Part shown: piece by piece, positions 34,096 to 35,651 of the stretch
How positions within the stretch are numbered: the stretch's first letter is position 1
Layout of the letters: each line of letters opens with the position of its first letter
NCBI GenBank assembly: GCA_900543555.1
Contig: UQRL01000004.1
Coordinates: forward strand, 9,612 to 73,611
Direction: 5' to 3'
Length of the DNA: 64,000 nt
From: an uncultured Oscillospiraceae bacterium
GTDB lineage: Bacteria; Bacillota; Clostridia; Oscillospirales; Acutalibacteraceae
The notes under the pieces: model-generated
What the model was told of the DNA's origin: nothing
The model's database searches: none
What the model saw: the letters and a program-made list of their open reading frames with translations, nothing else
Program-made: the position numbers and the translations under genes

Positions 34096-34127
34096 ACAAA
34101 AAAGGACGGGATAGAGCCCGTCCTTTT
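34096..34127 (-). terminator. Terminator of the oadB operon
   Basis: AAAGGACGGG pairs with CCCGTCCTTT; the minus-strand side ends in a T run. Confidence 0.85.
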
Positions 34128-34141
34128 CCTTTTCAATGCTG

Positions 34142-34273
34142 TTAAGACTTTTTCTTGGAAGTGATCTTGGTCAGCCCGTAGACCAGCAGGGCGATGACCA
34201 CGATCACCACAAAGATGCCCAGCATCCCTTTGCCCATGATACCCAGGGCTTCCATGACAGTTTCCATATTCAT
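34142..34273 (-). CDS. Small OadG-like membrane subunit (43 residues)
   Basis: MNMETVMEALGIMGKGMLGI starts a 43-residue protein with one membrane helix (~17-36, GMLGIFVVIVVIALLVYGLT) and a lysine-rich end. It matches the N-terminal helix of the gamma chain of Na+-pumping decarboxylases (GMxGIFxVIxxI) but lacks the long soluble tail. It is coded 39 bases after oadB, so it should be its partner. The ATG at 34273 follows AAGGAG at 12 bases; a second ATG lies two codons on. Confidence 0.75.
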   Translation of the reverse strand: MNMETVMEALGIMGKGMLGIFVVIVVIALLVYGLTKITSKKKS

Positions 34274-34312
34274 ATTCAGTCACTTCTCCTTGCGAAAAAC
34301 CAGGATTTTATC

Positions 34313-35449
34313 TTACATAAAGAAGCCCAGCACGATGCCGCCCGCCACAGCGGAAGCGATCTGGCCGGAGACGTTGGCGCCCACGGCGTGCATCAGCAGG
34401 TGGTTCTGGTTGTTGGCGGCAATGCCCATTTTCTCCACAATGCGGGCGGACATGGGGAACGCGGAGATGCCGGCGGCGCCCACCATGGGGTTGATCTTGG
34501 TCTTGCTGAAGATGTTCAGGATCTTGGCGAACACAACACCCGCCACGGTGTCGAACACGAAAGCCACCAGGCCCAGGGCCATAATCTTGATGGTATCCAG
34601 CTGGACAAAGCGGTCTGCCTGCATAGAGAAAGCGATGGTGATGCCCAGCAGCAGGGTGATCAAATTGGCCAGGTCGTTCTGAGCTGTCTCAGACAGGCGG
34701 TTGAGCACGCCGCACTCGCGGATCAGGTTGCCGAACATCAGGAAGCCCACCAGGGAGACAGAGGCGGGAGCCACCAGGCCGGCCACAAAGGTGACCATGA
34801 TGGGGAACAGGATGCGGGTGGTCTTGGTGACGGAATTGGGGCGGTATTCCATCTTGATGGCCCGCTCCTTCTTGGTGGTGACCAGCTTGATGGCCGCGGG
34901 CTGGATGATGGGCACCAGGGCCATGTAGGAGTAGGCAGCCACGGCGATGGGCCCAATGTAATCGGACTTGAGCACCTGGCTCACCAGGATGGAGGTGGGG
35001 CCGTCGGCGGCGCCGATGATGCCGATGGAGGCGGCGTTCTTCAGCTCAAAGCCCAGCAGGGCCGCCAGGACGATGGTCATGAAGATGCCGAACTGCGAGG
35101 CCGCGCCGAAGAGGAACATCTTCGGGTTGGAGAGCAGGGGGCCAAAGTCAATCATGGCGCCGATGCCGATAAACAGCAAAAGCGGGAACGCCTCGGATGC
35201 GTTGATACCTATCTCAAACAGCCACTCGATAATGCCGTGGGTCTGGATCGCTCCTTGCGTCTGATTGAGCACGCCAGAGCTGGGCAGGTTCACCAAGATG
35301 GCGCCAAAGCCCATGGGCAGCAGCAGCGTGGGCTCATACTCCTTTTTGATGGCCAGCCAGATGAGCACTGCGCCCACCACATACATGACCGCCTGCTGCC
35401 AAGTGATGGATAGCAGGCCTTCCCACAAGAATTCCATTGTTTTCTTCAT
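34313..35449 (-). CDS. oadB: OadB-type sodium-ion-translocating decarboxylase beta subunit
   Basis: The product is 378 residues with about nine to ten membrane helices. OadB/GcdB/MmdB features are GIGAMIDFGPLLSNP, GIIGAADGPTSILVSQ (the Na+-site Asp/Gly loop), LVPIIQPAAIKLVTTKKERAI and NHLLMHAVGANVSGQIASAVAGG. In known complexes it couples decarboxylation of a carboxybiotin to Na+ export. No alpha (carboxyltransferase) or biotin-carrier gene is nearby. ATG at 35449 follows AAGGAAGG. Its leader holds a structured RNA resembling a manganese riboswitch. Confidence 0.93.
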   Translation of the reverse strand: MKKTMEFLWEGLLSITWQQAVMYVVGAVLIWLAIKKEYEPTLLLPMGFGAILVNLPSSGVLNQTQGAIQTHGIIEWLFEIGINASEAFPLLLFIGIGAMIDFGPLLSNPKMFLFGAASQFGIFMTIVLAALLGFELKNAASIGIIGAADGPTSILVSQVLKSDYIGPIAVAAYSYMALVPIIQPAAIKLVTTKKERAIKMEYRPNSVTKTTRILFPIMVTFVAGLVAPASVSLVGFLMFGNLIRECGVLNRLSETAQNDLANLITLLLGITIAFSMQADRFVQLDTIKIMALGLVAFVFDTVAGVVFAKILNIFSKTKINPMVGAAGISAFPMSARIVEKMGIAANNQNHLLMHAVGANVSGQIASAVAGGIVLGFFM

Positions 35450-35495
35450 CCTTCCTTCTGTGTTTAAACAAATCTCTCCCGTTTTTGGGGGATAT

Positions 35496-35527
35496 AAAAA
35501 GAGACCCATGCCGCAAAGCACAGGTCT
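35496..35527 (-). terminator. Riboswitch-associated terminator in the oadB leader
   Basis: AGACCTGTGC (35518-35527) pairs with GCATGGGTCT (35502-35511), followed by CTTTTT. The 5' arm overlaps the AAGACC 3' strand of the aptamer, so ligand binding and termination are mutually exclusive. Confidence 0.75.
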
Positions 35528-35618
35528 TGTCGTTTCAAGCTAAACCAGGGTGCGGGAACACCCAAGATGTTGACTTAGCTGCATGGGGCACCATGCCGAC
35601 TACTCCCCCATATCGCTT
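35512..35618 (-). ncRNA. Candidate yybP-ykoY-like (manganese) riboswitch upstream of oadB
   Basis: The ~107-base leader has features of the yybP-ykoY family in the right order: GGGGGAGTAG near the 5' end, a small hairpin (GCATGG/CCATGC), GTCAACAT opening a second stem (AGCTAA with TTAGCT, capped by GGGTG/CACCC), and ACAAGACC at the 3' end. The 3' strand feeds directly into the terminator at 35496-35527. This is the ON-switch layout known for Mn2+ riboswitches. The GTCAACAT is followed by CTT rather than the usual ACTC, so this may be a variant. Confidence 0.6.
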
Positions 35619-35621
35619 GAT

Positions 35622-35651
35622 AGTGTACCATGATTTCCGGGAGCTTGTCAA
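35622..35651 (-). promoter_or_regulatory. Promoter of the oadB riboswitch transcript
   Basis: A perfect TTGACA and TACACT are separated by 18 bases. Transcription would begin near 35615, exactly at the start of the aptamer. Confidence 0.7.

Follow-up and report, generated by a model that had tools for sequence, protein, structure and literature searches.

A manganese riboswitch-type leader ahead of an orphan oadB and a mini-oadG gene in an uncultured member of the Oscillospiraceae

The window, a stretch of 64,000 nucleotides from an uncultured Oscillospiraceae bacterium that is a relative of known gut species, carries on its minus strand, in 5'→3' order, a promoter-like site, a structured leader, oadB and a 43-codon ORF. 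Sequence comparison indicates with high confidence that the leader is a Mn2+ (or Mn2+/Ca2+) riboswitch of the yybP-ykoY class, and the arrangement is best explained by a role of the alpha-less OadB/mini-OadG pair in Mn2+ overload. Taken as a whole, our best explanation is a Mn2+-induced transcript for an alpha-less efflux carrier, to which we give marginally better than even credence. The first-pass annotation had placed OadB outside the known targets of this riboswitch class, and in the open-licence literature we likewise found no report of a manganese/yybP-ykoY riboswitch paired with OadB or oxaloacetate decarboxylase; as far as this search goes, OadB is a so far unreported target of the Mn2+ riboswitch. 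The features of the unit are as follows.

35622 to 35651, minus strand: sigma-70-like promoter, TTGACA-18 nt-TACACT with TG ahead of the -10 element, recognised by consensus match only.
35514 to 35616, minus strand: predicted Mn2+ riboswitch aptamer, a three-way junction of P1.1, L1, P1.2, the P2 hairpin and P3 with the L3 bulge (RF00080 31.0 bits; own covariance model R1 101.8 bits; covariation).
35612-35607 paired with 35524-35519, minus strand: helix P1.1, closing the aptamer.
35600 to 35609, minus strand: L1 5' strand, GGGGGAGTAG / GGGGGAGUAG; G8, G9 and A10 of the published Mn2+ site, as numbered in PMC6754395, correspond to 35606, 35605 and 35604.
35574-35567, minus strand: sequence motif GTCAACAT.
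35564 to 35570, minus strand: L3 bulge ACAUCUU; the equivalent of the Mn2+-sensing A48/A41, in the numbering of PMC6754395, is 35568.
35530-35523, minus strand: sequence motif ACAAGACC.
35496 to 35527, minus strand: intrinsic terminator AGACCUGUGC...GCAUGGGUCU with U run from a terminator scan; stem 35527-35502, then CTTTTT; -14.9 kcal/mol folded alone.
34313 to 35449, minus strand: orphan OadB, 378 amino acids (PF03977 510.8 bits; PDB 6iva E 1.1e-99).
34142 to 34273, minus strand: mini-OadG, 43 amino acids, OadG-like, with one hydrophobic helix and without the alpha-docking C-terminal tail.
34100 to 34127, minus strand: palindromic terminator-like hairpin 3' of mini-oadG, listed by the scan on the plus strand.

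Transcription from the predicted promoter would start near the 5' end of the aptamer. The leader folds 4.18 standard deviations better than dinucleotide shuffles, none of 200 being as good, and the equivalent of C44 (35572) pairs with that of G66. All three yybP-ykoY signatures that had been noted in the right order at first pass are present on the minus strand, at 35609-35600, 35574-35567 and 35530-35523. Also as first described, switch helix and terminator share a strand: the 3' strand of P1.1 is contained in the 5' arm of the terminator (35527-35502), the antiterminator logic of the Lactococcus lactis switch. The L. lactis yoaB Mn2+ riboswitch (RF00080) further has in common with our leader its L1, GGGGAGUAG with a 3' AGA, a 7-nt L3 that follows a C-G/A-U step and carries the Mn2+-sensing adenosine, and the ON logic that goes with P1.1-terminator sharing. 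As described in PMC11087558, Mn2+ stabilises P1.1 of the L. lactis RNA, so that the terminator is prevented. By analogy, the nascent window leader would form the terminator 35527-35502 and stop transcription when Mn2+ is scarce; at plentiful Mn2+, L1 would dock on L3, P1.1 would be stabilised and its 3' strand kept from the terminator, so that oadB and mini-oadG would be transcribed. This ON-switch mechanism has been shown for L. lactis, and we infer it here from matching sequence and structure. The window leader differs in being a three-way junction, whereas the L. lactis and X. oryzae crystals show a four-way junction; a pneumococcal three-way member is reported in PMC9495176. It also differs from RF00080 members in scoring under the Rfam cut-off and in controlling oadB/mini-oadG.

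At gathering threshold, no Rfam family matched the window leader, as would be expected if its resemblance to a riboswitch were fortuitous and it were a mere terminator. In permissive mode RF00080 was the best match, with 31.0 bits against a cut-off of 45 bits (E 8.5e-7 in 501 bases). The covariance search proposed in the first-pass annotation, with RF00080 and the sodium (DUF1646) riboswitch model, therefore gave a split result: the former matched but stayed under its cut-off, and the latter was absent from the seven Rfam matches at E up to 10. A Na+-I riboswitch identity of the leader was rejected on this ground.

A contig scan gave 80 loci with a related OadB, in 53 of which up to 330 upstream bases were inspected. 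The exact strings GGGAGTA, TCAACA and AGACC occurred together in 17 of these 53 regions, only the first and third in four (L004, L015, L028 and L040), and GGGAGTA was absent from 32. R1 was built from 19 aligned leaders including that of the window; L015, L028 and L040 were left out. On the three-way-junction structure 92.6 % of the cells of this alignment pair and both sides are changed in 15 of the 31 pairs; 500 shuffles failed to equal the alignment on any measure, and slid controls paired at 27 to 42 %. An alignment of 100 rows, fitted to the model, consists of the 110 loci described below minus 12 (two duplicates, L110 of L047 and L112 of L007, and ten then unassigned or of other classes) plus L028 and the window. 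Here both sides are changed in 29 of the 31 pairs and 93.7 % of the cells pair, again with 0/500 shuffles as high and slid controls far lower.

R1 scores the window leader, itself one of the 19 training rows, at 101.8 bits. Outside its training set it matched the leaders of L015 (58.0 bits) and L028 (55.7 bits) and gave no match in that of L040; the Christensenella, Erysipelothrix and spirochaete loci tested had no significant match. Across the order to which Neglectibacter timonensis (L047; Oscillospiraceae) belongs, 163 of 394 genomes have an R1 match at E up to 0.01. RF00080 exceeded its cut-off in none of 17 related genomes, which were reached through OadB hits and so are not a random sample, though R1 matches all 17. 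Of 20 loci whose leaders precede MntP, ATPase, exchanger or OadB genes, four gave an RF00080 match at E up to 0.01; the highest score was 34.1 bits, and all four stayed under the cut-off. Because these other leaders also score below it, failure at the RF00080 cut-off says little in this group. The Mn2+ riboswitches ahead of mntP and P-type ATPases in the order were under the gathering cut-off wherever tested, and standard annotation therefore likely misses such riboswitches.

The nucleotides of the published Mn2+ site are strictly conserved. Among 98 aligned RNAs with an assigned target (17 OadB, window and L028 included, 46 MntP, 29 ATPase and 6 exchanger), G7, G8, G9, A10, G11, U12, A13, C44, C47, A48 and G66 are identical throughout, as are A92, G93, A94 and C95 towards the 3' end; A45 varies in five and A46 in three of the 98, and positions 49-52 are more variable. 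This invariant set takes in G8, G9 and A10 of L1 and the Mn2+-sensing adenosine as numbered in PMC6754395, where the metal is described as contacted by adenosine N7 in the crystal structures, A48 in X. oryzae and A41 in L. lactis. Since the Mn2+-site core is invariant across four target classes and the RF00080 cut-off carries little weight here, we take the leader to be a Mn2+ riboswitch. The first-pass proposal of a Mn2+-sensing ON switch agrees with RF00080 as top family, the covariation and the identical L1/L3 core. A chance resemblance has a practically negligible probability given covariation beyond shuffled and slid controls and core nucleotides identical in 98/98 RNAs.

A relative of the yybP-ykoY class that binds another ligand (Ca2+, Na+ or another cation) is improbable, too. 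The sub-threshold RF00080 score would suit it, as would the pneumococcal yybP-ykoY member, the three-way-junction mgtA switch, which according to the summary in PMC9495176 also responds to Ca2+; Ca2+ is therefore possible as a co-ligand of the window leader. Some oxaloacetate decarboxylases are, moreover, preceded by Na+-I (DUF1646) riboswitches as described in PMC9337991, a parallel in that a cation riboswitch with ON logic stands before an OAD gene. The Na+-I riboswitch is, however, a different RNA, unmatched in the window leader at E up to 10, and the L1/L3 core of our leader is that of the MntP-linked RNAs of the order, which also miss the RF00080 cut-off when tested.

Genes of Mn2+ homeostasis dominate behind this RNA: MntP follows 50 and a P-type cation ATPase 29 of 110 R1 matches, with OadB after 17 and a Na/Ca-exchanger-like gene after 8. 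In the remaining six, a TetR-type regulator comes first (four), a CitMHS/ArsB-type permease follows (one) or none was assigned (L132). These 110 comprise 30 tool-chosen matches and 80 from the matches listed (60 by rank, 20 lower ones hand-picked), with some genomes repeated. Target identity was taken from a phmmer comparison of all forward frames with reference proteins, some of which are themselves among the 110, and six (L119, L122, L128, L165, L191 and L200) were checked with Pfam. The products of mntP and yoaB under Mn2+ riboswitches are described as implicated Mn2+ efflux transporters (PMC9495176). Riboswitch-led MntP of the same genomes shares with the window unit the RNA model and the L1/L3 core nucleotides; its membrane protein family is unrelated to OadB. 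The Na/Ca-exchanger-like genes (L119, L156, L191, L199, L205, L207, L209 and L215) and the single CitMHS/ArsB-type permease (L200) behind the RNA are further candidate Mn2+ exporters. The TetR-type regulators belong to L165, L178, L181 and L204, the Pfam check covering L165.

When the window ORFs were searched by phmmer with a single representative of OadA, biotin carrier, OadG, MntP, P-type ATPase and Na/Ca exchanger, nothing matched at E up to 1e-3. Of 21 related loci that carry this leader, 20 had no linked alpha subunit within their extent. The original remark that no alpha subunit lies nearby thus holds for the window and for nearly all of its leader-bearing relatives. In L015 (586-6719), a riboswitch-led orphan oadB lies near canonical oad genes on the opposite strand, the sole such case among the 21 loci checked; the second OadB copy of L015 is alpha-linked. 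PYC_OADA matched in each of the 17 related genomes and OAD_beta at least twice in each; in 16 of them an OAD_beta lies within a few kb of PYC_OADA on the same contig, some of these pairs being cut by contig ends. A genome search for an unlinked oadA had been suggested at first pass. An oadA is indeed present in 17/17 genomes, but as it adjoins another oadB in 16, it does not explain the riboswitch copy. Canonical operons run oadG, biotin carrier, oadB, oadA in L104 and biotin carrier, oadB, oadA in L097, as read from sequence and order. In the relatives, the riboswitch oadB is on these comparative grounds a paralogue alongside a complete pump and not a displaced subunit of that pump, and the window OadB is by the same comparison a member of an alpha-less lineage. 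The ubiquitous PYC_OADA would allow OadBG to form an alternative, Mn2+-induced decarboxylase in trans with an OadA and biotin carrier encoded elsewhere, an idea to which the other oadB next to oadA in 16/17 genomes runs counter.

R1 lies upstream of the orphan oadB in 15 of the 17 genomes, of mntP in 12 and of both in 10. The suggestion of an undescribed metal-homeostasis system loses ground here: with the RNA ahead of both genes in 10/17 genomes, the pair would extend a known Mn2+ response rather than form a separate system. OadB as a replacement for MntP was rejected, as mntP was found in 16 of the 17.

In a protein tree, the main riboswitch OadB clade comprises 32 rows with an SH-aLRT of 99. 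RNA-led OadB outside this clade occur in L028 (R1 55.7 bits), L210 (R1 53.2 bits) and L040, whose leader was recognised by eye and fold only; by eye, L3 of all three is like that of L. lactis (UCA), not AACA. The riboswitch was thus probably placed ahead of an alpha-less OadB more than once, in a quick tree with long branches (L064, L060, L098, L210 and others) in which the exact places of L028, L040 and L210 are unsure. Among the 30 OadB of the order closest to that of the window the RNA is present in 18 and absent in 12, and 13 OadB loci without it had no metal-linked Rfam family at gathering threshold. OadB matching the window protein at E up to 1e-120 occur in 163 of the 394 genomes of the order, with at least 63 % identity among the matches listed and counted irrespective of alpha linkage. 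The promoters of the riboswitch-less orphan oadB in L267 and L269 share ATGTTAA(G/A)TCACATTTAACTTGAATT, possibly a protein-binding site in place of the RNA.

The window OadB is a member of the beta-subunit family PF03977, 45 to 50 % identical to 12 alpha-linked OadB from related genomes and 93 % identical to L001. With the Salmonella Na+ pump OadABG (PDB 6iva, 6iww) the unit shares the OadB family, the Na+-site residues and an OadG-like transmembrane helix; it differs in having no linked OadA, an OadG without alpha-docking tail, a Mn2+ switch upstream and R304/N311 unfixed in its lineage. For residue comparisons we used 57 orphan and 47 alpha-linked OadB, omitting L064, whose row is long and atypical, and L062, for which no carrier was detected; 30 of the alpha-linked rows had a biotin carrier in their neighbourhood, with OadA not seen there. 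The Na+-site residues D203, S382 and N412 of the Salmonella comparison are retained in 57/57 orphans, in the window as D149, S329 and N359. R304 and N311 are invariant in 47/47 alpha-linked OadB and missing from 38 and 31 of the 57 orphans, respectively (13 and 11 of 32 in the main riboswitch clade). Glu40 is retained in all 57 orphans, and the window OadB keeps Arg and Asn at the R304/N311 equivalents, both of which would suit the decarboxylase in trans. In Salmonella, as described in PMC7274780, Glu40 is critical for carboxybiotin decarboxylation and R304A and N311A inhibit OAD moderately. Loss of R304/N311 suggests catalytic loss in orphan OadB and does not prove it, with Glu40 kept, the mutants moderate and both residues present in the window.

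Position 350 is His in 54 of 57 orphans, the window included, and in none of the 47 alpha-linked OadB, which carry Phe or Tyr. His354 occurs in 48/57 and 44/47, so that the HxxxH pair (350 and 354), shortly ahead of N359, is found in 45 orphans and no alpha-linked row; it is a possible, putative metal ligand pair. Changes flanking the cation site (G201A, V416Q and others) are also seen in four of the 47 alpha-linked rows, apparently including Erysipelothrix, whose oadB adjoins a biotin carrier gene. They were thereby weakened as a mark of Mn2+ specificity and, since some alpha-linked rows have them, do not alone mark a new substrate.

The 43-residue OadG-like helix of the first reading was confirmed as an ORF (34142-34273) with one hydrophobic helix. 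It is under every curated cut-off, PF04277 giving 14.4 against 27 bits and NF040909 (OadG-related small transporter subunit), a similarly short OadG-like helix, 15.4 against 25 bits. The alpha-docking tail of a gamma subunit is absent. In PMC7274780, the Salmonella beta-gamma structure shows gamma residues 2 to 43, and deletion of gamma 61-84 is described as leaving beta-gamma binding intact and severely reducing alpha co-purification. A motif search picked up a short OadG-like ORF in 32 of the 38 riboswitch loci listed (at least three of these 38 are repeats), and this ORF ends 25 to 34 residues after the motif start. The missing tail, together with the loss of R304 and N311 in many orphans, speaks against a decarboxylase formed in trans, which we regard as rather unlikely. 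In the riboswitch loci L007, L008, L009, L010, L011, L013, L015 and L249, the mini-OadG carries at its start, ahead of the helix, a further copy of the hairpin-tip motif of OadB (such as SIGVIGGADGPTAVFVT); the window mini-OadG is without it.

The pair probably functions without OadA. Direct efflux would be the simplest role, because the recognised partners of the switch are metal exporters. We infer complex formation, substrate and direction as follows: OadB and mini-OadG would form an alpha-less membrane complex, an elevator-type carrier with the cation site of OadB and no carboxybiotin-delivering subunit of its own, which would act alongside MntP in clearing surplus Mn2+ (or a similar cation) by exchange against Na+ or H+. 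That the pair exports Mn2+ or a similar divalent, most likely as a Na+- or H+-coupled efflux carrier, we consider an even call. Counting against efflux are the 12 of 30 closest orphan OadB that lack the RNA, the kept Glu40 and the R304/N311 equivalents of the window. More tentatively, and somewhat short of even, OadB and mini-OadG may be a new Mn2+ exporter family in which a biotin-dependent decarboxylase pump lost its enzyme, became a secondary, elevator-type Na+(H+)/Mn2+ antiporter and acquired the riboswitch more than once.

Alternatively, the riboswitch may sense Mn2+ and OadBG carry Na+, not Mn2+, setting the gradient or returning Na+ for Na+-coupled exporters during Mn2+ overload. The Na+-site residues invariant in 57/57 orphans, the Kd for Na+ of 3.7 mM described for the Salmonella beta-gamma complex (PMC7274780) and the Na/Ca-exchanger-like proteins among the other targets of the RNA are all consistent with such a Na+ carrier. 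Without a carboxybiotin donor it would, however, presumably have no energy source for Na+ export, and MntP and P-type ATPases, which lead the target counts in the order, handle the metal itself, leaving it unlikely, though somewhat less so than the decarboxylase in trans. The repeated association of this riboswitch with alpha-less OadB hints at a function for a widespread OadB group. The pair may represent a novel type of protein for coping with excess Mn2+, perhaps an exporter, and if true this would show a route from a primary pump to a secondary carrier.

A segment of about 20-25 OadB residues with GADGPT was also seen, in several of the related genomes, inside otherwise unrelated ORFs of about 220-290 residues (L277-L286); in L277, L278 and L284, Pfam gave OAD_beta as top match of this segment, below the cut-off.
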